A stretch of DNA of 64,000 nucleotides from Streptomyces sp. GS7 (GTDB lineage Bacteria > Actinomycetota > Actinomycetes > Streptomycetales > Streptomycetaceae): assembly GCF_009834125.1 (NCBI RefSeq), contig NZ_CP047146.1, positions 6,317,501-6,381,500 on the forward strand. The letters run 5' to 3'. Positions 6,453 through 62,811 of this stretch are shown one piece after another (position 1 is the stretch's first letter; each line of letters opens with the position of its first letter). The notes beneath the pieces were generated by a model that searched no databases, was not told where the DNA came from, and worked only from the letters and a program-made list of their open reading frames with translations. The translations under genes and the position numbers were made by a program.

Positions 6453-6459
6453 GCCGGGT

Positions 6460-6652: not shown

Positions 6653-6664
6653 GGTGATAGCGGG

Positions 6665-8035: not shown

Positions 8036-8228
8036 GGTTGGGGGACGGGGTGAGGAGCGGCCTGGCACGGTGTTGTCCTGCTGTGACGTGGCTTGATCCG
8101 GTCGGTGATCGGCCAGCATTCATCACCTCGCCTACCCCCGGGGCCCGATCCGCGGGACCCGTCTGCCCAGCCTCCCTGAGCGTAATGATCACCACGACGA
8201 CGCCACGAGATCACCACGGGGGCCAGTC

Positions 8229-42154: not shown

Positions 42155-43450
42155 CTACGCGTCTCTGCTCAGCGAGGCCGTCTCGCGCACCGCGCAGGCC
42201 AAGGTGCGCAGGCCCTCGTCGAGTTCACCGGAGGTCACGGTGAGAGGCGGCAGCAGTTTGACCACCTCGCTGTCCGGGCCGGAGGTTTCGACCAGCAGGC
42301 CGAGTTCGAAGGCCCGCGCCGCGACCAGTGCCGCGCGATCGGTGTCGTGGAACTCCAGGCCCCACACCAGGCCCCGGCCCCGGAACTCCACGGTGTCCTC
42401 GGGGTGTTCGGCATGGATCTCTGCCAGTGCCTGCTCGACCTGTTCGCCGCGCAGCAGAGTCTGCTTCTCCAGCTGGTTGTCGGCCCAGTAGGCGTTGAGC
42501 GTGGCGGTGGCGGTGACGAAGGCGGGGTTGTTGCCGCGGAAGGTTCCGTTGTGTTCGCCGGGCTCCCAGATGTCGAGTTGTGGTGTGAAGAGGCACAGCG
42601 CCATGGGCAGTCCGTAACCGCTGATGGACTTCGACACGGTGACGATGTCGGGGATGATGCCCGACTCCTCGAAGGAGAAGAAGGCGCCGGTGCGGCCGCA
42701 GCCCATCTGGATGTCGTCCACGATCAGCAGCATGTCGTTGCGCCGGCACAGCTCGGCGAGTTCGCGCAGCCACCCGGGCCGAGCCACGTTGATGCCGCCC
42801 TCGCCCTGCACGGTCTCGACGATCACGGCCGCGGGACGGTCGAGTCCGGAGCCCTTGTCCGCCAGGAGCCGCTCGAACCAGGCGAAGGCAGGGGCGTCGT
42901 CGAGATAGCCGTCGTACGGCATGGGGATGCTGTGCACCAGCGGCACACCAGCGCCCGCCCGTTTGAAGGTGTTGCCGGTGACCGCGAGCGATCCGAGGGT
43001 CATGCCGTGGAAGGCGTTCGTGAACGACACGACCGCCTCGCGCCCCTTGACCTTGCGGGCCAGCTTGAGCGCCGCCTCCACGGCGTTGGTGCCGGTCGGG
43101 CCCGGGAACATCACCTTGTACGGCAGTTCCCGCGGCCGCAGGATCACGTCCCGGAAGGTCTCCAGGAACGTGCGCTTGGCCACGGTCGACATGTCCAGAC
43201 CGTGGGCGATGCCGTCACGCTGCAGGTAGTCGAGCAACGCGCCTTTGAGGATGGGGTTGTTGTGGCCGTAGTTGAGCGAGCCCGCCCCGGTGAAGAAGTC
43301 GATGTACGCGCGGCCCTGCTCGTCGTACAGATATGAGCCGCGGGCACGGTCGAAGACGGTCGGCCAGCCGCGGCAGTAGCTGCGGGCCTCCGACTCCAGG
43401 GTCTCGAAGACATCCGGATCGGGTTCGGTGACCCCGTGATGACGGTCCAT
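42155..43450 (-). CDS. ectB: Diaminobutyrate--2-oxoglutarate aminotransferase (EctB-like)
   Basis: 431-residue class III PLP aminotransferase. FNGPTGTNAVEAALKLARKV-like (MFPGPTGTNAVEAALKLA), VDDIQMGCGRTGAFFSFEES, and the PLP lysine in TVSKSISGYGLPMAL. The EctB family converts aspartate semialdehyde plus glutamate to L-2,4-diaminobutyrate. No ectA or ectC follows, so ectoine is unlikely. The nearby adenylation domain with a Dab-type pocket suggests that this gene supplies its amino acid. Confidence 0.88.
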   Translation of the reverse strand: MDRHHGVTEPDPDVFETLESEARSYCRGWPTVFDRARGSYLYDEQGRAYIDFFTGAGSLNYGHNNPILKGALLDYLQRDGIAHGLDMSTVAKRTFLETFRDVILRPRELPYKVMFPGPTGTNAVEAALKLARKVKGREAVVSFTNAFHGMTLGSLAVTGNTFKRAGAGVPLVHSIPMPYDGYLDDAPAFAWFERLLADKGSGLDRPAAVIVETVQGEGGINVARPGWLRELAELCRRNDMLLIVDDIQMGCGRTGAFFSFEESGIIPDIVTVSKSISGYGLPMALCLFTPQLDIWEPGEHNGTFRGNNPAFVTATATLNAYWADNQLEKQTLLRGEQVEQALAEIHAEHPEDTVEFRGRGLVWGLEFHDTDRAALVAARAFELGLLVETSGPDSEVVKLLPPLTVTSGELDEGLRTLACAVRETASLSRDA

Positions 43451-43514
43451 GGCACATCCTTGAGGGGCGGAGGAGTGGACAGGCGAACCTGAGGGAGAGA
43501 GCGGGTACGTGGCG

Positions 43515-43961
43515 TCAGACCGCGGCCGCGAGGAATCGGAGCGAGGCCGGATTCGGGCGTGCGACGACCCGGCCGGGGGCTCGACTGCGGGCGGCCAGGA
43601 TCTCCCGCAGGAGCGCCTCCCTCTGGTGCAGCGCACCCGAGCGGCCGCTCAGGGCCCGCTGCCACACGCGGGTGGTCTCGCGCGGACCGAGGCCACCGGA
43701 GCGGTACGACGCACGGCAGTGGAGTACGACGCCGCCGTTTTCCTCGGAAGACAGTCGCGACAGGCCGATACGGATGGAGGTCTCGGGGAACTCCACCGTC
43801 ACGGCGTCCTGGTGGCACACGACCTGAAGGACCCCGGCCAGCCGGCTGTCGCCGATGATCAGGGTGAACCGGAGAGCGAGGCCCTGCCGTTGCACGGCGG
43901 TACCCTGCCGGTGCCGCGGCGCCTGGCGGGCTGCACGAGGTGAGGTGTTTGCGTCGGGCAT
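43515..43961 (-). CDS. Hypothetical protein of the biosynthetic cluster
   Basis: 148 residues from ATG 43961 after GGAGAC. The middle is well folded by appearance: LALRFTLIIGDSRLAGVLQV, VCHQDAVTVEFPETSIRIGL, NGGVVLHCRASYRSGG. A helical C-terminus (HQREALLREILAARSRAPG) follows. It is the upstream partner of the EctB-like gene on the same strand, 65 bases apart. I recognise no family. A small ligand-binding or accessory protein is possible. Confidence 0.55.
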   Translation of the reverse strand: MPDANTSPRAARQAPRHRQGTAVQRQGLALRFTLIIGDSRLAGVLQVVCHQDAVTVEFPETSIRIGLSRLSSEENGGVVLHCRASYRSGGLGPRETTRVWQRALSGRSGALHQREALLREILAARSRAPGRVVARPNPASLRFLAAAV

Positions 43962-45079
43962 GATGAGCTGTCTCCTGCCTACGGCCCGCCACGGGTGTCT
44001 CGCGGCGGACGAAGGGCCTGCTGGGGAGGGCGGGGTCGGGTCTCCGGAGCCGGGGAGATGCCGCGTCGGGCGGCGGGCCGCCTGCGGGGCGCGCGGTGCC
44101 TTCCCCCGTGAGCCGGCTGGGGGTCCCGTCCTTGGAGCGAGCAGCAGGGCTTCCCCCTGCGCACGATGACGGCATCGGCTCACCAGCGATGACACCGCGA
44201 TCAGCTCGGCGAAGCGCGCAGCCGCCGTGATGGGCCCGACGGGCCCATCACGTGTTCCAAAGGAACGCACGCAGGTCGGCCGACCCGTAACCGGACAGTC
44301 TGCCCGTGCGTACAGCGCTGCCCGTCAATGTGGCATTCGCATGGTGGACTCCTTATGACGAGGATTCGGCCGGAGGCGGAGCTGGTTGCGGATCACCGGA
44401 AGTGTGGCAAAGGGCGTTCAAGAAACTGTTGGGAGAACGTCGAATCACAGCTCGGGGAGCCTGGCGCTGATGTGCAGCGTCCCTGCGCGGGCAGCCGGTG
44501 GCCGTTACAGCTGCGAAACCAGGAGGTTTCATCGGTTGCCTGCGGAGAGGGTGGCGTGGACCGCTCCGGGATCGGTGGAGCTCCATCAGACCCGGGAGCG
44601 GTTCATTTCCGGCCAGGCACATGGCCGGCGACCGGCCGTCAGAGCGCCTTGAGACTCTCAGCACAGATTGCGCCATTTCGTGGACTCGTGGCTGGACTCG
44701 CGCTTCCGTCGGTCCGGCGACCGGGCCGAGGAGGCGCCGCAGGGGCGCAGCTGCGCGTTCCCCCAGGCGATTCCGGGCGTTCAGGCAGGTTCACCGCTCT
44801 GACCGTAATTGCCGCAGAAGGGACGAAAGGGCGTTCTCCCTCCGCTGTCACACGCATTGTATGCAATCGCCATTCGTAGCTTTAGCGCCACAGGACGCTC
44901 AGGCCCATCTGGTTGCACTGTGGACCGATGTGTATGTTTCTTGCTGCTTCAGTGAATCTCGACTCGATAGGACCGCTATTTGCATCCGAGATGGGGGACT
45001 GGTGGATCGCTCGAAGCATGTGAACGAACGCAACCCGAGGCCGCTTGCACGAGAACGCCCTGTGACCGAGGGGAGCGGG
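43962..45079. other. Divergent regulatory region before the SARP gene
   Basis: About 1.1 kb with no convincing gene; the frame reaching upstream from the SARP gene has shadow-like composition before 45080. CGTGATGGGCCCG-A-CGGGCCCATCACG at 44226-44252 is a perfect 13-bp inverted repeat. The final 200 bases are AT-richer and likely hold the SARP promoter. Confidence 0.4.
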
Positions 45080-45862
45080 GTGACAGTCCACGGTGGAGTT
45101 CTCGGCCCATTGCATCTGGGCGCCTCCGCGTCGGCCGAAAGTGTCGCGATCGCACCGAAGGTTCGCACAGTCATGGCCATGCTGTTGGTCCACGCCGACC
45201 AGGTGGTTCCGGTCCACGCCTTCATGCGCGAACTCTGGGGGGAACAACCGCCGGCAACCGGATTGCGTACCCTGCAGACCTACATACTGAACTGTAGAAA
45301 AACACTGTCCCAACTCACCGGTCGCCCAGCCACCTACGTCGCCCAGGAGATCCTGGTGACCGGGGCGGGCGGCTACGGGCTGAAGAGCACTCATGTCCGC
45401 CTGGACTGGCTGGAGTTCCAGCGGTTGAAGAACCTCGGGACCAAGGCGCTGGAAGAGGGCGACAGCGCAGCCGGGATCGAACTGCTCGACGCCGCCCTGG
45501 CGTTGTGGCGGGGCGATGCTCTGGTCGACACTCCGGAGGGCCCCGTACTCCATTCCCAACGGCGGTTCTTCGAGGAGTCCCGGCTCGACGCCATAGCGAT
45601 ACGGGCGGAGGCGCAGATCAAGGCCGGCCTGCATCAGCGGGCCGTCACCCAGCTCGCCGTGGTGACCAGCGAGCACACGCTCCACGAGGGGCTGCAGGCC
45701 CAGTACATCCGCGCGCTGGCGCTCGGCGGACGCAGGGCCGAGGCCCTGGGGGTGCTGCGGATGCTGCGCACCCGACTGGTGAGCGAGATCGGGATCGAGC
45801 CCGGCGCCCCGCTCAGGGAACTCCAACTGGCCATACTGAAGTCGGAGTCCGGCGCCGTGTGA
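45080..45862 (+). CDS. SARP-family pathway-specific activator
   Basis: 260 residues from GTG 45080 after GAGGGGAGC. OmpR-type DNA-binding domain in residues 5-100 (VRTVMAMLLVHADQVVPVHA, LRTLQTYILNCRKTLSQLTG), then the bacterial transcriptional activation domain to the end (LDWLEFQRLKNLGTKALEEG, LQAQYIRALALGGRRAEALG). Small SARPs like this switch on one adjacent cluster, here most probably the rightward operon from 46815. No ATPase domain is present. A long hairpin follows directly. Confidence 0.92.
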   Translation: MTVHGGVLGPLHLGASASAESVAIAPKVRTVMAMLLVHADQVVPVHAFMRELWGEQPPATGLRTLQTYILNCRKTLSQLTGRPATYVAQEILVTGAGGYGLKSTHVRLDWLEFQRLKNLGTKALEEGDSAAGIELLDAALALWRGDALVDTPEGPVLHSQRRFFEESRLDAIAIRAEAQIKAGLHQRAVTQLAVVTSEHTLHEGLQAQYIRALALGGRRAEALGVLRMLRTRLVSEIGIEPGAPLRELQLAILKSESGAV

Positions 45863-45907
45863 GCCCGGCTCCGCAGTCGGCCACAGGCCGACTGCGGAGC
45901 CGGGCTC
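45861..45907 (+). terminator. 22-bp perfect hairpin after the SARP gene
   Basis: The arms 45861-45882 and 45886-45907 are perfectly complementary around ACA, and the hairpin overlaps the SARP stop codon. It is followed by no T-run but is strong enough to end transcription. Confidence 0.8.
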
Positions 45908-46814
45908 GGTTGTCGCCGAGCGACTCCGATCAGGGCGTGGCCGGCCCTGTGGTCTCGCGCCGCGCATCAGCCGGCCCGTACGTCGCCGACCGTGCGGGGA
46001 GAAACCGCCCGCCGCCTTGCAGATGCGGCGCGGCGACGCTGCGCGGCCCCGTCGAGCGGCCGGGGTGCGGACCGCAGGCCGTGCCGGGCGTCGACGCGGA
46101 CGGCGAGGACCAACACGCCGCTCTCCGGCCCGTCGAAGGACGCACGTCGACCGGGTGGCTGCCGTGTCACCCGGCGGCGAGGCGCTGCAGGCCGCCGATC
46201 ACCTGCCTGCTGACACTGTCTCCCTCCTGGCGCCGCCTCTGCTCGCGCCGCCGGCCGCGTCGGTGGGGCGCGCCGCTGTGAACCGCGGCAGGGTGTGCCG
46301 CGCGGCCCGGCAGGAGTCGGTGTCGCCACCGCCGTGCGCGGTCCGGGGCATTCCACAGGGCTGCAGTCGTGCTGCACGGCCGTGGCGGACACCGGTATCG
46401 CCCTCCCCCGGACTCTGCGGCCGACCCTCGTGAAGCCCCGCTCGCCGGTCGCGCCGGTCCGGTCACCGCCCTCCGCACCACGTTCCGGCCGAAACCCCCG
46501 GGCGGGCTCTTCTCCTTTTCTCGGCTCGTCGGCCTCCACACAGCCCGGGCGTGCCGGAAAACCCCCTCTGACCTGTACCTCTGCCGTATCCAGACTCGAC
46601 GTTGACTGCTTCTGGGGCTCGCTCCCGACAAGGTCTCGACAGGCGTTTGCGAGGCTGACAACGCAAACGGCCCCCGCGAAGGGGCCGCCCGCTCGCATCC
46701 AGCGGCCGGAACCGGTCCGGCCCGTACGGGAGCCCGGCGGCATCCCGGCGGAACCGGCGTCGAGGCAGAGCAGAACGGTGGGGCCTGACCATGGACGACC
46801 AGGAGGAGGTGGAC
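45908..46814. promoter_or_regulatory. Leader region of the adenylation/methyltransferase operon
   Basis: No gene is recognisable in these 900 bases. Near the downstream end, TTGACT (about 46601) may be a -35 box. CGTTTGC-N12-GCAAACG at about 46644-46669 is an inverted repeat and CGGCCCC-CGCGAA-GGGGCCG (46668-46687) a hairpin just before the operon. The repeated TCGAC motifs near 46595 and 46637 could be SARP sites but are not clear. Confidence 0.4.
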
Positions 46815-47840
46815 GTGACCACGCGGAGCGCCACCGAGAACACGGCGGGTCGGCAGCTCATCGAGCTGATGGCCGGCTTCTGGAAGACGCAGGCCGTCTA
46901 CGTGGCGACCGAACTGGGCATCGTCGACCGCATCGCGGCCGCCGGACGGACCCCCACCGTCGACCTGGCGCACCGCACCGGCACCGACGCCGACGCCCTG
47001 GGACGGCTGCTGCTGTTCCTCGGCAGCCTGGGTGTGGTCGACGGCGACGACACCGGCGGCTACGCCCTCACCCGCGTCGGCGAGTTGCTGCGCACCGACG
47101 CCCCTGACTCGATGATCGACCACGTCCGTATCTACGGCTCGCACTTCTACCAGGCGTGGGATGCCCTGTCCCACTCCCTCCACACCGGACGACCGGCCTT
47201 CACCCGTGTCTTCGGCAGTGACCTGTTCTCGTACCTGCACCAGAACCCCGACGTGTCGCTGACGTACGAACGCGCCATGACGGCGAGCGCCCCCTTCTTC
47301 GCCGAGGTCCCCGACGCCTTCGACTTCTCCCGGGCACGTCGGATCGTGGACGTCGCCGGCGGGCACGGAGCGCTCCTCGACGAGATCCTCAAGGCGAACC
47401 CCGGCGCCCGCGCCGTACTGTTCGACGCACCCGATGTCATCGAGGAGACGGCGAACCGCCCGATCGCCACGGTGCACGCGGACCGCTGCGAGCGGATCGC
47501 CGGCAACCTCTTCGATTCGGTGCCCGCCGACGGCGACGTCTACCTCCTCTCCCGCATCCTGCACTGCTTCGACGACGAGACCTGCCACCGGATCCTCACC
47601 AACTGCCGCCGCGCGATGGCCCCGGGCGCCCGGCTGGTGATCCTGGAACGCATCCTCACCAAGGGCACCGGTTCCTCGCTCACCCAGGGCTACAACCTGC
47701 ACATGCTGGTGGTGCTCGGCCAGGGGCGCGAACGGGACGAGACGCACTACCGCGCCCTCCTCGGAAAAGCCGGGTTCGCCGTGGAATCCCTGCACCGGCT
47801 GCCGCTGGAGTCGCATCTCCTCGTCGCGGTGCCCAGCTGA
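46815..47840 (+). CDS. SAM-dependent O-methyltransferase
   Basis: 341 residues from GTG 46815, eight bases after AGGAGG; an in-frame ATG 46791 is the alternative. The N-terminal dimerisation region with winged helix (WKTQAVYVATELGIVDRI) is followed by the Rossmann domain with SAM motif I, RIVDVAGGHGALLDEIL. The active-site histidine is in LSRILHCFDDETCHRILTNC. This is the plant-COMT-like family common in natural-product clusters. It is first gene of the operon; the next begins 38 bases after its stop. Confidence 0.92.
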   Translation: MTTRSATENTAGRQLIELMAGFWKTQAVYVATELGIVDRIAAAGRTPTVDLAHRTGTDADALGRLLLFLGSLGVVDGDDTGGYALTRVGELLRTDAPDSMIDHVRIYGSHFYQAWDALSHSLHTGRPAFTRVFGSDLFSYLHQNPDVSLTYERAMTASAPFFAEVPDAFDFSRARRIVDVAGGHGALLDEILKANPGARAVLFDAPDVIEETANRPIATVHADRCERIAGNLFDSVPADGDVYLLSRILHCFDDETCHRILTNCRRAMAPGARLVILERILTKGTGSSLTQGYNLHMLVVLGQGRERDETHYRALLGKAGFAVESLHRLPLESHLLVAVPS

Positions 47841-47878
47841 CCCATCGCCACTCGCCTCCTACGGCCCCTGGAGAGACC

Positions 47879-49564
47879 TTGAACAGCCAGGCCCCGCCCC
47901 CGCAGCGCACCGCCGACCCCGATCCACAGTTCCGCCCCGAACTGCCCTTGGCACCGGGCGCGGTCACCCGGGCACAGGAACTGGCCCTGCGCAACCCGGT
48001 GGCGCTCGATACGGAGACCGCCCTCCTCGACCACGTCGTCCGGCACGCCCGGAACCGGCCGGATGCCTGTGCGGTCCTGGACGGCGAACGCACCCTGAAC
48101 TACGGGCAGTTGCTCGCCAGGGTCGCCTCGGCAAGGGACGCGCTGTACGCCCACGGGGTGCGAGCCGGTGACGTGGTCGCCGCCGTGGGGCCGCGCAGCG
48201 CGCACACGCCGGTCGCCTTCCTGGCCTTGGAGAGCCTCGGGGCGTCGTATCTGCCGATCGACATGAGCTGGCCGGAGGACCGCGTCCGGGATGTGCTCGA
48301 CCGCAGCAAGCCGGCCCTGCTGCTCGACTACTCCGGCCGCACCGACTCGGCCGCGCGCTCGGCCGCCGATGCCGAGGAAATCGGCACACTGAGCCTGCCG
48401 ACAGAAGGCAAGCCCGGCCCCATGGACGAGGACACGTACGGCGACCGCACCGGCGAGGCCCGGTACACGATCTTCACCTCGGGCACGACCGGCCGCCCGA
48501 AGGGCGCCACCATCGAGCACCAGGGTCTGCTCAACCACCTGTGGTCCAAGACAGCCGACCTGTCGCTGGGACCGGAGGACGCGGTGGCCTTCTCGGCCCC
48601 GCTGGTGTTCGACATCTCCATCTGGCAGATGCTCTGCCCGTTCCTGGTCGGCGGCAAGGTCGTCGTGATCGACGATGCTGTCATGCGCATGCCGCGCTGG
48701 CTCATCGGTGCCCTCGACACCGCGGGCGTGACCGTCGTGGAGCTGGTGCCCACGGTCGTCGGCCGGCTCGTCGACGAGACACGGCGCCAAGAGGGGCCGA
48801 CGCTGCCGAATCTGCGGTGGCTGCTGTCCACCGGCGAGGAGCTGTATCCCGCCCTGGCGGAGCAGGTGCTCGACACGCTCCCGCACGTGTCCCTCCTCAA
48901 CGCCTACGGACCCGCGGAGTGCTCCGACGACGTCACGCTGCACACGGTGGCGCGCGCCGACCTGAGGCGCCCCCGGCTGCCGGTCGGCACCCCCGTGGCC
49001 AACTGCGCCCTCCATGTCCTGCTCCAGACCGAGGACGGCACCTGGAGGCCGGCCGAGCCGGGAGAGAGCGGCGAACTGTTCGTCGGCGGCACCTGTGTCG
49101 GGCTCGGCTATCTCAATGACCCCGCCACCACCGAACGCGCCTTCTTCCGCGACCCCTTCGACCCGGACTCCGCGACCGGCCGGATCTACCGCACCGGCGA
49201 CCTCGCCCGCGTCGAGGACGGACTTCTGTACTACCTGGGGCGCGGTGACCGGCAGGTCAAGGTCGGCGGCGTCCGGATGGAACTCGACGAGATCGAGGCC
49301 GTACTCAGCCGGCACCCCGCCGTCGAGCAGTGCGCCGCCACCGTCTCCGACGAGGGCGGCCTGAGCGAACTCGTCGCCCACTACACCCTGCGCACCGAGG
49401 TGCCGCAGCAGGAACTACGTCGGGCGCTCAGCGCGGCCCTGCCCCCGGTGATGGTCCCCCGCCGCTGGCAGGAGTGGGCCGAGCTGCCCCTGAGCCGCAA
49501 CGGAAAGATCGACTACCGGTCGCTCACGGCGGCCACGGCCAGCCCCCGGAAAGAGGCGCGATGA
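47879..49564 (+). CDS. Free-standing NRPS adenylation domain, likely Dab-activating
   Basis: 561 residues from TTG 47879. Core motifs: A3 YTIFTSGTTGRPKGATIEH, A4/A5 with NAYGPAE, A7 YRTGDLARVEDGLLYYLGR, A8 VKVGGVRMELDEIEAVL and the A10 lysine in LSRNGKIDY. No carrier or condensation domain is attached. Aligning by eye to GrsA gives the pocket D-I-W-E-L-T-A-D-D-K. From memory this agrees with codes reported for 2,4-diaminobutyrate. It presumably loads the carrier protein at 51490. Its stop overlaps the next start. Confidence 0.93.
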   Translation: MNSQAPPPQRTADPDPQFRPELPLAPGAVTRAQELALRNPVALDTETALLDHVVRHARNRPDACAVLDGERTLNYGQLLARVASARDALYAHGVRAGDVVAAVGPRSAHTPVAFLALESLGASYLPIDMSWPEDRVRDVLDRSKPALLLDYSGRTDSAARSAADAEEIGTLSLPTEGKPGPMDEDTYGDRTGEARYTIFTSGTTGRPKGATIEHQGLLNHLWSKTADLSLGPEDAVAFSAPLVFDISIWQMLCPFLVGGKVVVIDDAVMRMPRWLIGALDTAGVTVVELVPTVVGRLVDETRRQEGPTLPNLRWLLSTGEELYPALAEQVLDTLPHVSLLNAYGPAECSDDVTLHTVARADLRRPRLPVGTPVANCALHVLLQTEDGTWRPAEPGESGELFVGGTCVGLGYLNDPATTERAFFRDPFDPDSATGRIYRTGDLARVEDGLLYYLGRGDRQVKVGGVRMELDEIEAVLSRHPAVEQCAATVSDEGGLSELVAHYTLRTEVPQQELRRALSAALPPVMVPRRWQEWAELPLSRNGKIDYRSLTAATASPRKEAR

Positions 49565-50775
49565 CCACGACAACGGCAACGACAGCGACGGCAAGGGCGT
49601 CCCAGGACACGGGCCGGGTCGGCGTCCCCGACCTCGCGGAACGCCTCGCAGCGGTGACCCGGGTCGCCGAACAGCACCTGGACCGCACCGAGCGGGACGC
49701 GACGTTCCCTGAGGAGGCGATGGCGGAGCTGCGCAGCACCCGCCTGCTCGGCCTTCAGGTGCCCAAGGAGGAGGGCGGCCTCGGCGGCACCCTCGGTGAC
49801 CTCATCGAGACGGGCATGGTGCTCGGGCGCACCGACATGTCGCTGGCCATGATCTTCGTGATGCACTGTCAGCAGGCCGAGGCGGTGGTGCGGCACGCCG
49901 CGTCGCCCCTGCGGGAGGAGCTGATCCCGCTTCTCGCCGAGGGCAAGCTGTACCTGGCGTCCGTGACCACCGAGAGCGGCAAGGGCGCCGACCTGTTCAA
50001 GTCCGAGGCCCCGCTGCACGAGGCAGCAGGGACTCTGGTGGTCGACCGGACCGTCCCCATCTCGACCGGCGGCACCTCCGCGGACGGCTTCCTGATCACC
50101 ATGCGCAGCCCGAACGCCACGGCGGACCAGCATGTCTCCCTCGTCTACGCCCACCGCCACCAGCTGCACGTGGAGGTCACCGGGCAGTGGAACCCGATGG
50201 GGATGCGCGCCACGCACAGTCTGCCGCTGACGCTCAGCGGCCGGATCCCCGCCCACCAGGTGATCGGCGAGCACGGCGCGTTCCACCGCATCGTGCAGTC
50301 CGTCTTCGGCCCCCTCGCCCACATCGGCTGGTCGGCCGTTTGGCTGGGCACCGCCTCCGGGGCCCTGTCCCGGGTACTACGCCTGCTGCGCGACCCGGCC
50401 GGCCGCAAACGTTTCGATCTGGGCTCGGAATTGCTGCTCACCCGGCTGTCCAGGGCCCGGCAGCGGCTGGAGACCGTCCACGCGCTGCTGCGCCGGACCC
50501 AGGCACTGGCCGAGTCCGGGACGGACTGGTCGGTCACCAGTCACCAACTGCTCCTGAACAACCTCAAGATCACGGCGGCCGAGGAGTGCTACGCCGCCGT
50601 CGACGAGCTCATCGACGCGACCGGCCTCAAGCACGGCTATCTCCAGGACTCGCCGACCCGCCTGGAAAAGGCCCTGCGCGACCTGCGCTCGGCCGCCCTC
50701 AACTACAGCAACGACCGGCTGCACCTGGCCGACGGGCGGCTTTGCCTGCTGGACCCGGACGTTCGGTTCGCCTGA
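49561..50775 (+). CDS. Acyl-CoA-dehydrogenase-like flavoprotein
   Basis: 404 residues from ATG 49561, coupled to the adenylation gene (ATGA). N-terminal helices with FPEEAMAELRSTRLLGLQVP, the middle beta domain with YLASVTTESGKGADL and GQWNPMGMRATHSLPLTLSG, and the C-terminal helical domain with ITAAEECYAAVDELIDATGL and NDRLHL. FAD contacts are plausible. In comparable clusters such enzymes oxidise an aminoacyl group on a carrier protein, for example prolyl to pyrrolyl. Here the likely substrate is a carrier-bound diaminobutyryl or similar group. The exact catalytic base is not obvious. Confidence 0.88.
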   Translation: MTTTTATTATARASQDTGRVGVPDLAERLAAVTRVAEQHLDRTERDATFPEEAMAELRSTRLLGLQVPKEEGGLGGTLGDLIETGMVLGRTDMSLAMIFVMHCQQAEAVVRHAASPLREELIPLLAEGKLYLASVTTESGKGADLFKSEAPLHEAAGTLVVDRTVPISTGGTSADGFLITMRSPNATADQHVSLVYAHRHQLHVEVTGQWNPMGMRATHSLPLTLSGRIPAHQVIGEHGAFHRIVQSVFGPLAHIGWSAVWLGTASGALSRVLRLLRDPAGRKRFDLGSELLLTRLSRARQRLETVHALLRRTQALAESGTDWSVTSHQLLLNNLKITAAEECYAAVDELIDATGLKHGYLQDSPTRLEKALRDLRSAALNYSNDRLHLADGRLCLLDPDVRFA

Positions 50776-50879
50776 ACACCCGGCCTCTCCCGACCGGAGC
50801 CGGCCTTCCCGTACTCATGCAGGCGCAGGGCACCGACCGGCCGCCGCATCCATCCGCATCCCACCTCCAAGGATCCGTC

Positions 50880-51449
50880 ATGCCTGAAAACACCGCCGAA
50901 AGCCCGGCCCAGAACTGGAACACCGCCCTGAAGTACATCGCAGGGCGCAAAGCAGCCGAGGAGTCCCTGGGATTCGTCGCGCACGTCAGCGCCACCGTCC
51001 GCGACACCGAGGACGCGTCGGGCGTCATCCCGGCGGTGGCCCGCACCTGCGTGCCGTTCTTCGCCCACGCGGTCTCGCTGGACGCCGAGCCCACCCACGG
51101 CCAGGCCGTCTTCCAGGGCCCGGACGAGCTGACCTCCGTCGTCGAGTCCTTGCGCGGCCTCGCCGCGGAGACGGGGCAGCGGCAGCTCGTCATCAGCGAG
51201 CACGAGGGGCTGGCCCCCAAGACCGACCCGCGCCACCTGGAACTGCTGCGCGAGGGAGGGGGTGAATCGGCGGTGGCCCTCTCCCTCGCCTACCGGGGGC
51301 TGTCCGGCGGGTACCTCGTCCTCGTACGGCAGGCGAACCACCGCCGGGGTGCCTTCAGCCCCGGGGACCTCGCCCTGGCGTCCGAAGTGGCCGACCGCGT
51401 GGGGGCGTTCAACGCGCTCGCCGGCCTGACCGCCCGCGCCGGGCAGTGA
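50880..51449 (+). CDS. GAF-like stand-alone protein
   Basis: 189 residues from ATG 50880. An N-terminal helix (AEESLGFVAHVSATVRDTED) leads into a GAF-like fold: VARTCVPFFAHAVSLDAEPT, SAVALSLAYRGLSGGYLVLV, and a C-terminal helix FSPGDLALASEVADRVGAFN. This architecture is common in the sensory half of PP2C-type SpoIIE phosphatases, but no phosphatase domain follows. Why such a protein is placed inside an NRPS operon is unclear: ligand sensing, or an unrecognised catalytic use of the fold. Confidence 0.6.
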   Translation: MPENTAESPAQNWNTALKYIAGRKAAEESLGFVAHVSATVRDTEDASGVIPAVARTCVPFFAHAVSLDAEPTHGQAVFQGPDELTSVVESLRGLAAETGQRQLVISEHEGLAPKTDPRHLELLREGGGESAVALSLAYRGLSGGYLVLVRQANHRRGAFSPGDLALASEVADRVGAFNALAGLTARAGQ

Positions 51450-51489
51450 CACGGCCGCACCGAACGCCGGTCACCACCGAGGAGGGCTG

Positions 51490-51720
51490 ATGGCAGCGGA
51501 CTGGACCGACGTACGCGACTGGATTCTTGAGCGCAATCCCGACCTGACGGATCTGCAGCCCGAGACCGACATCATCGACTCACGCATCGTCGACTCCCTG
51601 CAGTTCGTCGAACTCGTCCTTTTCATCGAGGACTTGCGCGGCGCGGCGCTGGAGTCGAACGACGTCAGCCTCGATTCCTTTCGCACCCTCAAGGGCATCG
51701 AGCAGACCTTCTTCCAATGA
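51490..51720 (+). CDS. Free-standing acyl/peptidyl carrier protein
   Basis: A 76-residue single helical bundle. The phosphopantetheine attachment serine is in SRIVDSLQFVELVLFIED (D-S-L). ETDIIDSRIVDSLQFVE resembles the carrier motif of small stand-alone PCPs. Preceded by GGAGG. It is positioned to carry the amino acid loaded by the adenylation protein and to present it to the dehydrogenase. Confidence 0.9.
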   Translation: MAADWTDVRDWILERNPDLTDLQPETDIIDSRIVDSLQFVELVLFIEDLRGAALESNDVSLDSFRTLKGIEQTFFQ

Positions 51721-51747
51721 CGGCCGACATCCGTGCAGGGAGCGGCG

Positions 51748-52482
51748 ATGGACACGAGAAACGAACGATCCCTAGTCATCCAGGGCGATGTCGACAAGGC
51801 CGACGATGTCGTCGTGTTCCTTCCGCCGGCGGGCAGCGTCACCTCGCCTTACCTCCCGATCAGTGAGCTCCTCCCGGACACCCTGCCCACCGTGCACTGC
51901 GAGACGCCGGGGCGTGGACGACTGGCGGACGAGGAGTCACCCGACTCCGTGCACAGCGCGGCCGACCGCTGGGCCGCCGACCTGGCCGAGACCGTGCCGG
52001 GCCGACGGCTGCACTTCTTCGGACACAGCCTGGGGGCGCTGTACGCCTACGAACTGACGCTCCGTTTCGAGGCCCGGCCCGACTGCGCGGCCGCGAGCCT
52101 GTCCGCGTCGGGCGCCCGCGAGCCGGGCAGCACTCCCCGCCCGCTGCTGGCCACCGCTTTCGCCGCCTTGCGGACGCCGGACCGGCAGGAGAGCGCCGGG
52201 GAGCAGTGGATGGACCGGGACCTGCGCATACGGGGCGAGTACCGGACCGCGCACCAGGTGGTGCGGGCCCCCCTGGCCACGCTGTGCGGCACCTCCGACC
52301 CCTTTGCCCGACCGCACGAGATGGAGCAGTGGAAACGCTTCACGAGCGGCCCGTACCTCGGGATGTTCACCTTCCGCGGCGGTCACGACTACTACCTGTC
52401 CGGTCAGCGGACGGTCGCCGACGCCATCGCCCGCATCGTCGACGACAGCCGGCATCCGGAACTCGTTCCGCACCTGGAATGA
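51748..52482 (+). CDS. Type II thioesterase
   Basis: 244-residue alpha/beta hydrolase, from ATG 51748 after GGAG. The start VVVFLPPAGSVTSPYLPISE is the oxyanion region, LHFFGHSLGALYAYELTLRF the nucleophile elbow (G-H-S-L-G), and TFRGGHDYYLSGQ the catalytic histidine (G-G-H-D/F-Y). TSDPFARPHEM carries the acidic residue. Such enzymes clear misloaded carriers or release the product. Here, with no integrated TE, it may be the main release enzyme. Confidence 0.9.
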   Translation: MDTRNERSLVIQGDVDKADDVVVFLPPAGSVTSPYLPISELLPDTLPTVHCETPGRGRLADEESPDSVHSAADRWAADLAETVPGRRLHFFGHSLGALYAYELTLRFEARPDCAAASLSASGAREPGSTPRPLLATAFAALRTPDRQESAGEQWMDRDLRIRGEYRTAHQVVRAPLATLCGTSDPFARPHEMEQWKRFTSGPYLGMFTFRGGHDYYLSGQRTVADAIARIVDDSRHPELVPHLE

Positions 52483-52551
52483 ACCGGCGTCCGGGCCCCC
52501 TCCGGAACCGATCTCCCTCATCCCTACACCCGAAGTGAATGGAGTTCAGAG

Positions 52552-53415
52552 ATGCCGAACGACCCCCAGGAAGCACCCTCGGTCGAGCAGCTGATCGACG
52601 TCATCGCGAACAGCTCGGTGGGCATCGCGGTCACCGACCGCTCCGGTGCCGTCGTACTGCACAACCGGGCGCAGTCCGTGCTGATGGGCGGGGAGGCCGA
52701 CCACCTCGGCGGCCGGATCCTGCTCGACAGCGCGCAGGACGGCCTCCGGACGCTGATCCGGCGTTTGGAGGAGGAACAGCGGGTGGAGAACGTCCAGGTC
52801 ACCTACCGCGGCATCGACGGCGGGCACGAGCAGATCGCCCGCGTGAACGCCGTGCTGACCGGCAGCGGCGACGACACCCGCATCCACTGGGTGAGCCGGC
52901 CGGAGCTCGGCGAGCGACTCCCGGTCTCCAACGACAGCGCCGAGGACGTCACCTCGGACGCCGCGTCCTGGATCCGCGCCGTCAACGAGCGCCCGCTGCC
53001 CACCCTGGCTCCCACCAAGGAGTCCGAGGACGTCATGCGCGAGTTCTACGAGGTCGCCCCGGTGGCGATCCACCTGATCGGCGTCAACGGCCAGGTCATG
53101 CGTGCCAACCCGGCGGACGTGGCCCTCGTCGGCTACACCTCCGCGCCGTCCGAGTACGTCGGCCAGCACATCCGCACCATCTACGAGGACAAGGGGCTGC
53201 TCGACGACTTCCTCGGCCGCTGGGACGAGGACTCGCCGATCATCAACTTCCGGGCCAACTTCCTGACCAGGGAGGGCGCCCCGCAACCCGTGCTGATCTT
53301 CTCGACCGCCCAGGCCGAGGGCGGCAGCGTCACCAACACCCGGTGCTTCGTCTTCAGCGACCCGGAGCCGCAGCGCGCCCGCGACACCATCAGCGCCTTC
53401 GGCTGGCCTTCCTGA
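52552..53415 (+). CDS. Protein with two PAS-like domains
   Basis: 287 residues. PAS 1 (residues 10-110): EQLIDVIANSSVGIAVTDRS, GAVVLHNRAQSVLMGGEADH. PAS 2 (160-275): MREFYEVAPVAIHLIGVNGQ, VMRANPADVALVGYTSAPSE, YVGQHIRTIYEDKGLLDDFL. No kinase, cyclase or DNA-binding domain is attached. It closes the biosynthetic operon and is followed by a strong terminator. It may sense a metabolite or redox state and act with the GAF protein. Its presence here is unusual. Confidence 0.7.
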   Translation: MPNDPQEAPSVEQLIDVIANSSVGIAVTDRSGAVVLHNRAQSVLMGGEADHLGGRILLDSAQDGLRTLIRRLEEEQRVENVQVTYRGIDGGHEQIARVNAVLTGSGDDTRIHWVSRPELGERLPVSNDSAEDVTSDAASWIRAVNERPLPTLAPTKESEDVMREFYEVAPVAIHLIGVNGQVMRANPADVALVGYTSAPSEYVGQHIRTIYEDKGLLDDFLGRWDEDSPIINFRANFLTREGAPQPVLIFSTAQAEGGSVTNTRCFVFSDPEPQRARDTISAFGWPS

Positions 53416-53423
53416 CACCCCAC

Positions 53424-53457
53424 GGGCGGGGCGTGGGACATGTCCCACGCCCCGCCC
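53424..53457 (+). terminator. 17-bp perfect palindrome ending the biosynthetic operon
   Basis: GGGCGGGGCGTGGGACA is followed immediately by its complement. The stem would close with a minimal loop. Lying nine bases after the PAS stop, it separates the biosynthetic operon from the nitrate operon. Confidence 0.75.
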
Positions 53458-53503: not shown

Positions 53504-54043
53504 GTGGCTGTGTCCCACGTATTGGTCATATCCGGCAGCCCGTCCGCGACTTCCAAGACCGAAGCCATCGGCGACCACGTGGCGCGACGCCTCGCCGACT
53601 ACGAGTGGCACGTCGGACACCTCAGGGTCCGCACCCTGCCGGCCGCGCCACTGCTGAACGCCGACGCCACGCATCCCGCCATCGCCGAGGCCCTGGAACA
53701 GGTCGCCCGGGCCGATGGCATCGTCCTCGCCACACCGACGTACAAAGCGAGTTTCTCGGGTCTGCTCAAGACCTTCCTGGACCTGCTGCCCCAGTACGGA
53801 TTCCAGCAGAAGGCCGTGCTTCCCCTGGCCACCGGCGGCAGCATCGCCCACCTCCTCGTCCTCGACTACGCCCTGCGGCCCGTGGCGCACGCGCTCGGTG
53901 CCCGGCATGTGGTGCAGAGCCTCTTCCTCCTCGACGAACACCTCGCGTGGCAGGAGGGCCGGCCGCACCTGCTCCCGGAGAGCACGCGGTTGCTCGACGA
54001 CGTGATCGAACAGTTCCGCAAGTCCCTGATCTCGGCATCCTGA
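53504..54043 (+). CDS. NADPH-dependent FMN reductase (SsuE-like)
   Basis: 179-residue flavodoxin-like protein; GTG at 53504 or 53510. FMN loop VLVISGSPSATSKTEAIGDH, then GIVLATPTYKASFSGLLKTF (the T-P-x-Y-x-x-S motif of NADPH:FMN reductases) and LPLATGGSIAHLLVLDYAL. It would supply reduced FMN or electrons. It is the first gene of the nitrate-assimilation unit. Confidence 0.9.
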   Translation: MAVSHVLVISGSPSATSKTEAIGDHVARRLADYEWHVGHLRVRTLPAAPLLNADATHPAIAEALEQVARADGIVLATPTYKASFSGLLKTFLDLLPQYGFQQKAVLPLATGGSIAHLLVLDYALRPVAHALGARHVVQSLFLLDEHLAWQEGRPHLLPESTRLLDDVIEQFRKSLISAS

Positions 54044-54073: not shown

Positions 54074-55450
54074 ATGGCTCACCGTCCCCGCAAGGGAAAG
54101 TGGCTCGTCGACTGGGATCCCGAGGACGAGGACGCCTGGGAGCGGTACGGCCGGCGGGTCGCGCGCCGCAATCTCGTCCTGTCCGTGCTCAGCGAACACA
54201 TCGGCTTCTCCGTGTGGACGCTGTGGTCCGTCCTCGTCCTGTTCATGTCGCCCGACATCGGCCTCGGCTTCGACGCCGGAGAGAAGTTCCTCCTCGTGGC
54301 CACGCCCACCGTCGTCGGTGCCCTGCTGCGGCTGCCGTACAGCTTCGCCGTGACCCGGTACGGCGGCCGGAACTGGACCGTGTTCGCCACCGCGATCCTC
54401 CTCGTGCCGGCCCTTCTCGCGCTGTACTTCGTCCAGCGGCCCGGCACACCGCTGTGGGTGTTCCTGGTCATCGGTGCGCTGGCGGGCGTGGGCGGCGGGA
54501 ACTTCGCATCGTCGATGACGAACCTCACCGCCCTGTATCCGCAGCGCCACCAGGGCTGGGCCCTCGGCCTGAACGCCGGCGGCGGGAACCTCGGCGTCGC
54601 GTCCGTGCAACTCGTCGGGCTCACCGTCGTCGCCGTGGCGGGCCGGACCCACCCGTCGTACGTCGCCGCGGTCTATCTGCCGCTGATCGTGCTCGTCGCG
54701 CTGCTCGCGGCCTGGCGGATGGACAACGTGGACGCCGTGCGGGCCACCCCGGGAACGCAGCGCGAGGCCGCCCGCGACCGGGACACCTGGTGGATCTCGC
54801 TGCTGTACATCGGCACGTTCGGCTCGTTCATCGGCTATGGCTTCGCCTTCGGCCTGGTGCTGCAGAACGAGTTCGACGCCACCCCGCTCACCGCCGTCGG
54901 CTACACCTTCCTCGGTCCACTGCTGGGCTCCGCGGCCCGGCCGCTGGGCGGGCTGCTGGCCGACCGGCTGGGCGGGGCGAGGGTGACCTTCTGGAACTTC
55001 CTCGGCATGGGCGCCGGCACCCTCCTCCTGCTCTGCGCGACCAGGGTCGGCTCCTTCGCCCTGTTCATCGCCGGCTTCACCGCCTTGTTCGTACTCAGCG
55101 GCATCGGCAACGGCTCCACGTACAAGATGATCCCCGCCGTGTTCTCGGGGCGCGCCGAGGACGAGGTCACCGCCGGCCGGGATGCCGGTTCCGCGTTCGC
55201 CCGGGCGCGCCGGCTGTCCGGGGCGGTCATCGCCATTGCCGGGGCGATCGGCGCGCTCGGCGGCGCCGCCATCAACATCACCTTCAAGCTGTCGTACGCC
55301 GACGGCACCGGCTCCGGTGCGCCCGCCTTCCTCGCCTTCCTCGGCTACTACGCCCTGTGCATGGTGCTCATCCGGGTCGTCTACCTGCGCCGGAAACCCG
55401 CCGAGCACGCAGCCCCGACCGACCGCCCCGAGGCGAGAAGCCGTGTCTGA
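54074..55450 (+). CDS. narK: Nitrate/nitrite MFS transporter
   Basis: 458 residues, 12 predicted helices. The nitrate signature motifs appear as GVGGGNFASSMTNLTALYPQ and SGIGNGSTYKMIPAVFSGRA, with glycine-rich G-G-x-x-N-F-A-S typical of NarK/NasA. It imports nitrate for the reductase encoded next. Its stop overlaps the start of the reductase gene by eight bases, so they are co-translated. Confidence 0.95.
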   Translation: MAHRPRKGKWLVDWDPEDEDAWERYGRRVARRNLVLSVLSEHIGFSVWTLWSVLVLFMSPDIGLGFDAGEKFLLVATPTVVGALLRLPYSFAVTRYGGRNWTVFATAILLVPALLALYFVQRPGTPLWVFLVIGALAGVGGGNFASSMTNLTALYPQRHQGWALGLNAGGGNLGVASVQLVGLTVVAVAGRTHPSYVAAVYLPLIVLVALLAAWRMDNVDAVRATPGTQREAARDRDTWWISLLYIGTFGSFIGYGFAFGLVLQNEFDATPLTAVGYTFLGPLLGSAARPLGGLLADRLGGARVTFWNFLGMGAGTLLLLCATRVGSFALFIAGFTALFVLSGIGNGSTYKMIPAVFSGRAEDEVTAGRDAGSAFARARRLSGAVIAIAGAIGALGGAAINITFKLSYADGTGSGAPAFLAFLGYYALCMVLIRVVYLRRKPAEHAAPTDRPEARSRV

Positions 55451-57539
55451 ACCACCCTCCCGCACACCGGAAGTGGACACGCACTGCCCGTACTGCGCCC
55501 TGCAATGCGGTACACGGCTGGCCGGCGACCGGGACATCGGCGTGACCCTGCGCCCGGCCGACTTCCCGGTCAACCGCGGCCGCCTGTGCCAGAAGGGCTG
55601 GACCGCGCCCGACGTCCTGGCCGCCGCCGACCGGCTGACCGAGCCGCTGGTCCGCGCGCCGGACGGCCATCTCACCGAGACCACCTGGGACCTCGCCCTC
55701 GACACGGTCGCCGGGCGGCTGCGCGAGCTGCGCACGCGGTACGGCCCCGACGCGGTGGCCGTCTTGGGGGGCGGCGGCCTCACCAACGAAAAGGCCTATC
55801 TGCTCGGCAAGTTCGCCCGGCTGGCGCTGGGCACGAGGAACATCGACTACAACGGCCGGTTCTGCATGTCGTCCGCCGCCGCGGCCGGCAACGCCGCCTT
55901 CGGCGTGGACCGCGGCCTGCCCTTCCCCGTCACCGACCTCGCGACCGCCGACGCGGTGCTGCTGGCCGGCGCCAACGTCGCCGAGACCATGCCGCCGCTG
56001 ATGCAGCACCTCGACGCGGCGGAACTCATCGTCATAGACCCCAGGCACACCCCCACCGCCCAGCGAGCCAAGCTGCACCTCCAGCCCGCCCCCGGCACCG
56101 ACCTCGCCCTGGCGCTCGGGCTGCTGCACATCACCGTCGTCGACGGGCTCGCCGACGCGGAGTACATCCGGCGCCGCACGCACGGCTTCGAAAGCGCCGT
56201 ACGCCGGGCGATGGCGTGGTGGCCCGAGCGGGTCGAGGCCGTCACCGGCGTCCCGGCGAGCGCCCAGCGCACCGCCGCCCGGATGCTCTCGGCGGCCCGC
56301 AACGCCTACGTCCTCACCGGCCGCGGCGTCGACCAGCACAGCCAGGGCACCGACACCGCCGCGGCCTTCATCAACCTCGCCCTCGCGTTGGGCCTGCCCG
56401 GCTCCGGCCACGGCGGATACGGATGCCTGACCGGCCAGGGCAACGGCCAGGGCGGGCGCGAACACGGGCAGAAGGCCGACCAGTTGCCCGGCTACCGCTC
56501 CCTCACCGACCCCGAGGCCCGCGCCCACGTCGCCGGCGTCTGGGGCGTGCCGCCCGAGTCGCTCCCCGGCCCCGGGCGCACCGCGTACGAACTCCTGGAC
56601 TCCCTCGGCCGCGACCAGGGGCCGCGCGCCCTGCTGGTGTTCGGGTCGAACCCCGTCGTCTCCGCACCGCACGCCGCGCGCGTGGCCGAGCGGCTGGCCT
56701 CGCTGGACCTGCTGGTGGTGGCCGACTTCGTCCCCTCGGAGACCGCCCGCACGGCCGACGTCGTACTGCCGGTCACCCAGTGGGCCGAGGAGGAGGGCAC
56801 GCTGACCAGCCTGGAGGGCCGGGTGCTGCGCCGCCGCGCCCTGCTGACGCCGCCCCCGCACGTCCGCACCGATCTGGAGGTCCTGCACGGCCTCGCCGTG
56901 CGGCTCGGCGAACCCCCGCACCGCTACCCGACCGCCCCGAGGGACGTCTTCGACGAACTCCGCGCGGCATCCCGGGGCGGACGCGCCGACTACTCCGGCA
57001 TCAGCTACCGGCGCCTGGACGCCGGGGAGGCCCTGCACTGGCCCTGCCCCGACACCGAGCCCGCGCACCCCGGTACGCCCCGGCTCTTCCTGGAGCGGTT
57101 CGCGCACCCCGACGGCCGGGCGTGGTTCGACGAGGTCGACCACCGCGGGCCCGCCGAGCACACCAGTGCCGCGTACCCGCTGCACGCCACCACCGGCCGG
57201 GTCCTCGCGCACTACCAGTCCGGGGCGCAGACCCGGCGCGTCGCCGAACTGCACGGCGCCGTACCCGAGCCGTTGATCTCCGTCCACCCCGACACCGCCG
57301 CCCGCGCCGGAGTCGCCGACCGCGCCCTCGCCCGCGTCACCTCTGTCCGCGGCAGCATGACAGGCCGGATCCGGCTCGACCCGACGATGCGCCCGGACAC
57401 CCTCTTCATACCGTTCCACTTTCCGGGCGACGGCCGCGCCAACCTCTTCACCCACCCCGCCCTCGACCCCCGCAGTGGCATGCCCGAATTCAAGCTGAGC
57501 GCCGTACGCCTCGAACGGCTCCCGGAGGCCACGCCATGA
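55443..57539 (+). CDS. nasC: Assimilatory nitrate reductase, molybdopterin subunit
   Basis: 698 residues from GTG 55443. N-terminal [4Fe-4S] site HCPYCALQCG with the last cysteine in NRGRLCQKGWTAPD; Mo-bis-MGD domains follow (AFINLALALGLPGSGHGGYG, CLTGQGNGQGGREHGQKADQ, ADVVLPVTQWAEEEGTLTSL). The C-terminal cap (TSVRGSMTGRIRLDPTMRPD) is present. Cytoplasmic reduction of nitrate to nitrite. Electrons probably come from the two flavoproteins encoded after it. Confidence 0.95.
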   Translation: MSEPPSRTPEVDTHCPYCALQCGTRLAGDRDIGVTLRPADFPVNRGRLCQKGWTAPDVLAAADRLTEPLVRAPDGHLTETTWDLALDTVAGRLRELRTRYGPDAVAVLGGGGLTNEKAYLLGKFARLALGTRNIDYNGRFCMSSAAAAGNAAFGVDRGLPFPVTDLATADAVLLAGANVAETMPPLMQHLDAAELIVIDPRHTPTAQRAKLHLQPAPGTDLALALGLLHITVVDGLADAEYIRRRTHGFESAVRRAMAWWPERVEAVTGVPASAQRTAARMLSAARNAYVLTGRGVDQHSQGTDTAAAFINLALALGLPGSGHGGYGCLTGQGNGQGGREHGQKADQLPGYRSLTDPEARAHVAGVWGVPPESLPGPGRTAYELLDSLGRDQGPRALLVFGSNPVVSAPHAARVAERLASLDLLVVADFVPSETARTADVVLPVTQWAEEEGTLTSLEGRVLRRRALLTPPPHVRTDLEVLHGLAVRLGEPPHRYPTAPRDVFDELRAASRGGRADYSGISYRRLDAGEALHWPCPDTEPAHPGTPRLFLERFAHPDGRAWFDEVDHRGPAEHTSAAYPLHATTGRVLAHYQSGAQTRRVAELHGAVPEPLISVHPDTAARAGVADRALARVTSVRGSMTGRIRLDPTMRPDTLFIPFHFPGDGRANLFTHPALDPRSGMPEFKLSAVRLERLPEATP

Positions 57540-62007: not shown

Positions 62008-62043
62008 GGCCACCCTGTCGCGCTTCCGATAATCTGCCAATCG

Positions 62044-62811
62044 ATGAAGAATATCCGCCATGAGTCAGTGGCACCGACCAGCGCCCGCTGGCTGGCTCCG
62101 GGCACAGGGATCGACGCCCACCGGCACGACGACCACCAGCTCGTTTACGCGGGCCGGGGCGTGCTCGCCGTCACGACCGGCGCCGGCTCCTGGACGGCCC
62201 CGGCCACCCGGGCGATCTGGGTGCCGGCCGGCACCGTGCACTCCCACCGGGCGCACGGCGAGCTGGAACTGCACCTGGTCGGCCTCCCTGCGGACACCAA
62301 CCCGATCGACCTCGACCAGCCCACCGTGCTGAGTGTCAGTCCGCTGCTGAGGGAACTGATCCTCACCTGCACCCGCGACCCGGCGGACGACAGCCCGGAA
62401 CGTCGGCGCCTGCGTGCCGTCCTGTGCGACCAGCTGCGAGTCTCACCCCAGCAGCCTCTGCACGTCCCGGCGCCGGCCGCACCGCAACTCAGGACGCTGT
62501 GCGAGATCCTGCACGCCGACCCGGCCGACAACCGCACCCTGGCCGCCCTGGGCAGACAGGTCGGCGCCAGCGACCGCACACTGTCACGGCTGTTCAAGGC
62601 CGACCTCGGCATGACGTTCCCGCAGTGGCGCACTCAACTGCGGCTCTCCCACGCCCTGGTGCTGCTCGCCGAGGACACGCCGGTGACGGTGGTGGCGCAC
62701 CGGTGTGGCTGGTCCTCAGCCAGCGCGTTCATCGACGTCTTCCGCCGCGCCTTCGGCCACACACCGGGCCGCTCCGCGGACGCGGCGCGGACGATGGGAC
62801 GGAACGGGTAG
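62044..62811 (+). CDS. AraC-family regulator with cupin sensor domain
   Basis: 255 residues from ATG 62044. Residues 15-95 form a cupin (GIDAHRHDDHQLVYAGRGVL, IWVPAGTVHSHRAHGELELH). Residues 150-250 form two HTH motifs: LAALGRQVGASDRTLSRLFK and VTVVAHRCGWSSASAFIDVF, then RRAFGHTPG. It lies divergent to the Fsr-like pump, so the pump is its likely target and the effector may be the exported compound. Confidence 0.93.
   Translation: MKNIRHESVAPTSARWLAPGTGIDAHRHDDHQLVYAGRGVLAVTTGAGSWTAPATRAIWVPAGTVHSHRAHGELELHLVGLPADTNPIDLDQPTVLSVSPLLRELILTCTRDPADDSPERRRLRAVLCDQLRVSPQQPLHVPAPAAPQLRTLCEILHADPADNRTLAALGRQVGASDRTLSRLFKADLGMTFPQWRTQLRLSHALVLLAEDTPVTVVAHRCGWSSASAFIDVFRRAFGHTPGRSADAARTMGRNG

Follow-up and report, generated by a model that had tools for sequence, protein, structure and literature searches.

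An L-alanosine-type gene cluster of Streptomyces sp. GS7 that probably uses 2,4-diaminobutyrate in place of diaminopropionate

What is made at a locus of Streptomyces sp. GS7 where an EctB-type aminotransferase, an enzyme for L-2,4-diaminobutyrate (Dab), stands near a free adenylation (A) domain, a free peptidyl carrier protein (PCP) and a flavoprotein with the acyl-CoA dehydrogenase (ACAD) fold? The locus lies in a stretch of 64,000 nucleotides, called the window below, which corresponds to G000:C1:6317501-6381500 (contig NZ_CP047146.1) of a complete genome of 9.07 Mb (99.99% complete). We read the genes as an L-alanosine-type diazeniumdiolate cluster that has been retuned from diaminopropionate (Dap) to Dab, with L-homoalanosine, perhaps O-methylated, as the product, and assign this reading a probability of roughly 0.78. 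L-Homoalanosine is exactly the compound expected if Dab replaces Dap; homoalanosine is a herbicidal Streptomyces product, found in S. galilaeus and known for decades. What we observed directly is the gene content and its homology, a conserved neighborhood, the lack of an SbnB match in the host and the lack of a dehydrogenase base in the flavoprotein.

Family scans and comparison with related loci gave a row of sixteen genes from 42155 to approximately 62811. A previous reading of the same DNA from its letters alone (the sequence-only reading) had named seven of these, and family scans found all of its genes at the coordinates it gave; the span between those coordinates was correct, but the cluster runs about 9 kb further to the right, and nine genes (GAF, double-PAS, FMN reductase, NarK, NasC, the two NirB-like proteins, the transporter at 60754 and cupin-AraC) had gone unnamed. 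In order, the row reads as follows.

42155..43450, minus strand: EctB-type L-2,4-diaminobutyrate aminotransferase, second copy (TIGR02407, 655 bits, cut-off 552; ATG at 43450)
44498..45862, plus strand: Streptomyces antibiotic regulatory protein (SARP), conserved part from about 45068 (BTAD and Trans_reg_C; homologue in 10 of 16 loci)
46791..47840, plus strand: Methyltransf_2-type O-methyltransferase (PF00891, 154 bits)
47879..49564, plus strand: free A domain, code DIWELTADDK (TIGR01733, 341 bits, cut-off 317)
49561..50775, plus strand: AlaD/AlnG-type flavoprotein, proposed N-hydroxylase of a carrier-bound diamino acid (78% identity to AlaD; no catalytic Glu)
50880..51449, plus strand: GAF-fold protein, between flavoprotein and carrier
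51490..51720, plus strand: free carrier protein, AlnI-type PCP (DSL serine)
51733..52482, plus strand: type II thioesterase (PF00975; GHSLG)
52552..53415, plus strand: double-PAS protein (PF00989/PF13426)
53504..54043, plus strand: SsuE-type NADPH:flavin mononucleotide (FMN) reductase (TIGR03567, 196 bits, cut-off 164)
54074..55450, plus strand: NarK-type nitrate/nitrite transporter (TIGR00886, 277 bits, cut-off 312; NF011608, 293 bits, cut-off 836; both below)
55443..57539, plus strand: NasC-type molybdopterin nitrate reductase (NF047855, 735 bits, below the cut-off of 1100; PF00384, PF01568)
57536..58918, plus strand: NirB-like flavin adenine dinucleotide (FAD)/NAD reductase with a BFD [2Fe-2S] domain (Pyr_redox_2 and Fer2_BFD; TIGR02374 positions 1-464 of 794, 206 bits, below the cut-off of 578)
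58867..60120, plus strand: second NirB-like FAD/NAD reductase (Pyr_redox_2 and Rubredoxin_C; TIGR02374 positions 1-384 of 794, 403 bits, below the cut-off of 578)
60754..62061, minus strand: major facilitator superfamily (MFS) transporter, probable exporter (PF07690; 72% identity in S. alanosinicus)
61996..62811, plus strand: cupin-AraC protein, probable AlnA homologue, regulator or N-N enzyme (PF07883 and PF12833; 73% identity in S. alanosinicus)

From the methyltransferase through the second NirB-like gene, all genes lie on the plus strand, either overlapping slightly or separated by no more than 104 bases; the overlap of the flavoprotein gene with the A-domain gene, noted before, is 4 bases long. 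S. anandii (L009) and S. rishiriensis (L010) showed the named genes in an identical order, with identities of 77-95%, and so did S. niger (L011) except for the methyltransferase, which was missing there. Because of this recurrence in the same order, the gene set is not a chance assembly.

Eighty loci were taken from 85 relatives (scan of genome contigs, 101 pattern matches), and the proteins of the GS7 window and of the S. alanosinicus locus (L057) were searched in the 81 sequences formed by these loci and the window. The block of A domain, AlnG-type flavoprotein, GAF, PCP, thioesterase and PAS was found in 16 of the 81, namely in the window and in 15 of the 80 fetched loci (L009-L022 and L057). 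The remaining 65 sequences had an AlnG relative at 43-68% identity in other gene settings; by the same criterion none of them had a GAF or PAS match, and three had a weak thioesterase match (28-30%). The serine of the carrier SLQF motif and the GHSLG of the thioesterase were kept in all 16 block loci, and the FMN reductase was present in 14 (not found in L014 and L018). NasC was found within the fetched stretch in 11 block loci and the cupin-AraC protein also in 11, in L014 at only 39%. A tree built from the concatenated core proteins grouped the window, L009, L010, L011 and L019 in one clade with a support of 100, next to L015. This neighbor (Streptomyces atratus, positions 1-8200), the closest relative outside the clade of the EctB-carrying loci, has the methyltransferase, several further genes between SARP and methyltransferase, and neither EctB nor SbnA/SbnB nearby. 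L018 (Streptomyces sp. CT34) looks like a decaying copy: in its A domain the conserved pocket Asp is changed to Gly and YGP to YGF, and its surroundings gave no match for the FMN reductase, the nitrate genes or the precursor genes. L079 (Lentzea pudingi), which lies outside the block set, has a 46% AlnG relative and, close to it on the other strand, SbnA, SbnB and an A domain with identities of 50-59%; GAF, PAS and thioesterase matches were not found there, and it is perhaps another Dap-based cluster.

The best-known member of the set is the aln/ala locus of S. alanosinicus. The GS7 proteins showed 70 (A domain), 76-78 (AlnG/AlaD), 56 (GAF), 71 (PCP), 56 (thioesterase), 73 (PAS), 76 (FMN reductase), 73 (cupin-AraC), 72 (MFS), and 55% (SARP) identity with it, and the A-domain code was identical, so that by sequence the free A domain and free PCP appear to be those of the aln/ala type. 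The gene order of L057 appears to fit the published letters, with G as flavoprotein, H as GAF, I as PCP, J as thioesterase, K as PAS and L as FMN reductase. A passage of PMC11705231 describes AlaD/AlnG as the hypothesized N-hydroxylase of L-diaminopropionate in L-alanosine biosynthesis, and a portion of PMC7347517 describes AlnI as the PCP holding diaminopropionate and AlnG with AlnL as the second N-hydroxylation step. The same portion mentions 14 related clusters, which may include EctB-type ones. Whereas L057 carries SbnA/SbnB, GS7 carries EctB and an extra O-methyltransferase, and L057 has an FAD protein, taken as a CreE homologue, where GS7 has the NarK-NasC-NirB-like genes. Other aln-type loci with nitrate/nitrite reductase genes, such as those of S. 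hirsutus (L012) and S. caelestis (L013), share with GS7 the whole core plus NarK, NasC and both NirB-like genes, but carry SbnA and SbnB and have no methyltransferase match. The sequence-only reading had called the cluster apparently undescribed; we found no description of a homoalanosine or Dab-type cluster, of the EctB swap or of the methyltransferase in the literature searched, which did not include the 2023 paper on nitric oxide (NO) or two papers on the L-alanosine cluster, but the machinery is that of the characterized L-alanosine cluster. In that literature homoalanosine is mentioned by a single paper, PMC6387500, as one of ten candidates for a mass of 163.

The difference that matters most concerns precursor supply. 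The cluster EctB scored above the cut-off of the EctB equivalog and is an extra copy; the other EctB, 77% identical, adjoins EctC elsewhere in the genome. The sole genomic EctC match lies beside that other EctB at G000:C1:2454374-2454751, 3.9 Mb from the window, which upholds the earlier statement that ectC is missing from the cluster (ectA was not searched); with no EctC next to its EctB, the locus differs from an ectoine locus, although it has EctB in common with one. The GS7 genome gave no SbnB match at an E-value of 1e-40 and no SbnA match over the cut-off, only below-cut-off ones of a kind seen also in 12 of 14 control genomes. SbnA together with SbnB was found in 8 of the 16 block loci (L012, L013, L014, L016, L017, L020, L022, and L057), and EctB in four (the window, L009, L010, and L011); no locus had both, and the cluster EctB stands where other loci carry SbnA/SbnB. 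Since SbnA and SbnB, the genes for L-Dap synthesis, are absent from the locus and EctB is there instead, we filed it as a variant of the L-alanosine type and not as an L-alanosine cluster. The genomes of L009 to L011 likewise contained a cluster EctB copy (85-91%) and another copy (77-80%). Among 392 genomes of the genus, five had an AlnG-type match better than 1e-172 and two, both among these five, had a cluster-type EctB better than 1e-236; the two are the GS7 host itself and G121, whose coordinates are those of the S. anandii genome, so that it is not independent of L009. The pocket code of the A domain had been read exactly (D-I-W-E-L-T-A-D-D-K), and it occurs in 14 of the 16 block loci, those of the Dap type included, with one change each in L011 (to M) and L018 (to G). 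As an identifier of Dab, the code was rejected because Dap-type loci carry the same one; it is EctB, and not the code, that suggests Dab as the substrate. The cluster very probably starts from Dab. The earlier proposal of a carrier-bound Dab is thus likely, given a second EctB at the locus, the lack of an SbnB match in the genome and the free A domain, PCP and type II thioesterase, but it draws no support from the pocket.

NarK, NasC and the two NirB-like genes would give the cluster its own source of nitrogen oxides (NOx), as in the aln/ala type. According to a section of PMC11705231, aln clusters lacking the CreD/CreE pair may obtain NOx from nitrate-nitrite reductases, and part of PMC10831120 assigns alnP/alnQ/alnR to nitrate-nitrite reductases and counts NO among the alanosine precursors confirmed by experiment; as far as these sections go, the GS7 nitrate genes match both alnP/Q/R and the nitrate-nitrite route. 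Family scans found no siroheme domain in either NirB-like protein, and the closest NIR_SIR match of the genome lies at a distance of about 370 kb. Because the siroheme domain was not found, the module seems to supply nitrite or NO rather than ammonium. NasC is not unique in the genome; another copy showed 63% identity over residues 10-546. The two tandem NirB-like flavoproteins without a siroheme-domain match (57536-60120) are both present in several other aln-type loci as well.

From these genes, a route to L-homoalanosine can be proposed in which we infer every chemical step, and in which the roles of AlnG, the PCP and the nitrate genes rest on published L-alanosine work as given in reviews. 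EctB would convert aspartate semialdehyde to L-Dab, which the A domain would adenylate and load on the free carrier. The AlnG-type flavoprotein, with reduced flavin from the SsuE-type reductase, would then hydroxylate the side-chain nitrogen N4. NarK, NasC and the two NADH flavoproteins without a siroheme domain would bring in nitrate and stop at nitrite or NO, which would be joined to the N-hydroxylamine; the cupin-AraC, GAF and PAS proteins are candidates for this enzyme. The thioesterase would release (S)-2-amino-4-(N-nitrosohydroxyamino)butanoic acid, that is, L-homoalanosine, or act in editing, the extra methyltransferase would perhaps O-methylate the product, and the MFS protein would export it. 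If this is true, a gene cluster is assigned to homoalanosine, and the diamino acid of the alanosine pathway has been swapped through a supply gene with the A-domain code unchanged. The occurrence of Dab-type beside Dap-type versions would allow tests of which enzymes recognize chain length and of whether the cupin, GAF or PAS protein forms the N-N bond, a step described as putative for L-alanosine in a passage of PMC11705231.

The sequence-only reading had taken another course at the flavoprotein: following the logic of pyrrolyl-PCP formation, carrier-bound Dab would be desaturated at alpha-beta like prolyl-PCP, perhaps cyclized, methylated, and released. The ACAD fold and the free A domain and PCP, which the locus shares with the RedW-type conversion of prolyl-PCP to pyrrolyl-PCP, fit this course, and a prolyl-ACP dehydrogenase (PDB 4irn) was among the profile matches at 45 bits. 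The catalytic residues and family scores led us to reject it. We aligned the 16 cluster flavoproteins and a paralogue from the GS7 genome (L002) with 14 controls, namely six ACAD-like proteins of the GS7 genome (L003-L008) and eight RedW-family proteins (L128-L135, three of them over the family cut-off), and examined the two positions that hold the catalytic base in the ACAD family. None of the 17 AlnG-type proteins had Glu at either position, whereas every control had Glu at one of them, L004-L008 at the C-terminal position and L003 and all eight RedW-family proteins at the other. In the GS7 flavoprotein, the two residues are A253 and Y382 (N381 in HMMER's alignment). With the prolyl-PCP dehydrogenase family NF045652, the protein scored 21.3 bits against a cut-off of 650, and it showed 78% identity over 94% of its length to a record named "AlaD [Streptomyces alanosinicus]". 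The nearest solved structure by sequence was a DszC-type monooxygenase, followed by a mixture of true dehydrogenases, other DszC proteins and nitrososynthases. Desaturation would also leave the FMN reductase and nitrate genes unexplained, and we regard it as very improbable. An ACAD fold without the dehydrogenase base and a partner flavin reductase characterize two-component flavin-dependent N-monooxygenases of this fold, and GS7 shows both, the reductase scoring over its family cut-off and standing in the same gene row. The SsuE-type reductase is the probable flavin supplier of the AlnG-type enzyme, for which we propose, by analogy with L-alanosine biosynthesis, N-hydroxylation of the carrier-bound diamino acid. 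The paralogue in the GS7 genome (66% identity) belongs to another cluster (L142, G000:C1:5563001-5583000). That cluster also encodes a free A domain, a second ACAD, a protein whose end weakly matches a carrier domain, a carbamoyltransferase, an ATP-grasp ligase and an MDMPI_N protein. In the wider flavoprotein family, represented by the 65 other compared sequences, many members are followed by a generic A domain at a distance of about 3 kb.

Two other explanations keep the N-hydroxylase and change what surrounds it. In one, the product is ordinary L-alanosine built from Dap, with EctB as a neighbor or as the supplier of something else. The identical A-domain code of the Dap-type loci and the common core genes favor this, but the GS7 genome gave neither an SbnB match nor SbnA over the cut-off, EctB has been kept beside the cluster as an extra copy in four loci, and it never occurs with SbnA/SbnB at a locus; we consider this explanation quite unlikely. 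In the other, carrier-bound N4-hydroxy-Dab leads to a different N-O or N-N product, such as an oxime, nitro compound, azoxy compound or methylated nitronate, and the nitrate genes serve only in regulation or nitrogen supply. The extra methyltransferase in four of the 16 loci would suit such a product, as would the lack of nitrate genes within the fetched stretch at the S. niger and S. albus loci, but in GS7 the nitrate genes stand in one operon-like row with the core and have published counterparts in L-alanosine clusters, so that this explanation, too, appears unlikely. Several observations do weigh against a Dab-based route to homoalanosine. The A-domain pocket does not tell Dab activation from Dap activation. 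Neither EctB nor SbnA/SbnB was found within the fetched stretch of four of the 16 loci (L015, L018, L019, and L021), one of which, L019, belongs to the same clade as the EctB-type loci; no SbnB match was obtained in the genomes of L018, L019 and L021, whose EctB lies elsewhere and is less closely related (76-78%). Outside their clusters, S. anandii and S. niger possess both SbnA and SbnB at scores above the cut-offs, and the four cluster EctB copies group apart from other copies with a support of only 75. On the NOx side, the NarK, NasC and NirB-like proteins are all below their NCBIfam cut-offs, S. niger, although EctB-type, has no nitrate genes or methyltransferase within 10 kb, and S. anandii has no NarK match within 10 kb. 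No counterpart of the methyltransferase was found in the stretch fetched for S. alanosinicus.

The enzyme of N-N bond formation may be sought among three proteins. The cupin-AraC protein at 61996-62811, with 73% identity to its L057 counterpart, corresponds to AlnA of the aln/ala type, which may form the N-N bond according to part of PMC11705231. The GAF and double-PAS proteins were present in all 16 block loci and have no recognized output domain. The C-terminal half of the double-PAS protein is very conserved (85.5% mean pairwise identity, residues 158-287); its structure prediction reached a mean predicted local distance difference test (pLDDT) score of only 41.5, and sequence searches of the PDB gave nothing for it. 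The predicted model of the GAF protein showed a clear GAF fold in fold searches; the profile search of the PDB gave one unconvincing match (E 0.26), and no heme-bound GAF protein was recognized among the 50 matches listed per fold search, which does not exclude heme. KinJ is described in an extract of PMC12154649 as a heme enzyme with distant GAF similarity. It is conceivable, if rather doubtful, that the GAF and double-PAS proteins, rather than acting as regulators, form the N-N bond themselves: sensor folds, perhaps with heme, would have been recruited to couple the N-hydroxylamine on the carrier with NO or nitrite, after which, in the EctB lineage, the methyltransferase would cap the diazeniumdiolate, and the resulting O-methyl ether would be a masked NO donor. 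The methyltransferase, nearest to microbial natural-product methyltransferases, was found in four block loci (the window, and L009, L010, and L015 at 80-87% identity), and L021 had only a 28% match. To the left of the cluster, a protein with a C-terminal YwqJ-like deaminase domain (40109-41203) directly adjoins EctB, and two transposase genes lie a few kb away, at 35056-35910 (DDE_Tnp_1/DUF4096) and 37847-38836 (IS481-like, with an rve domain).

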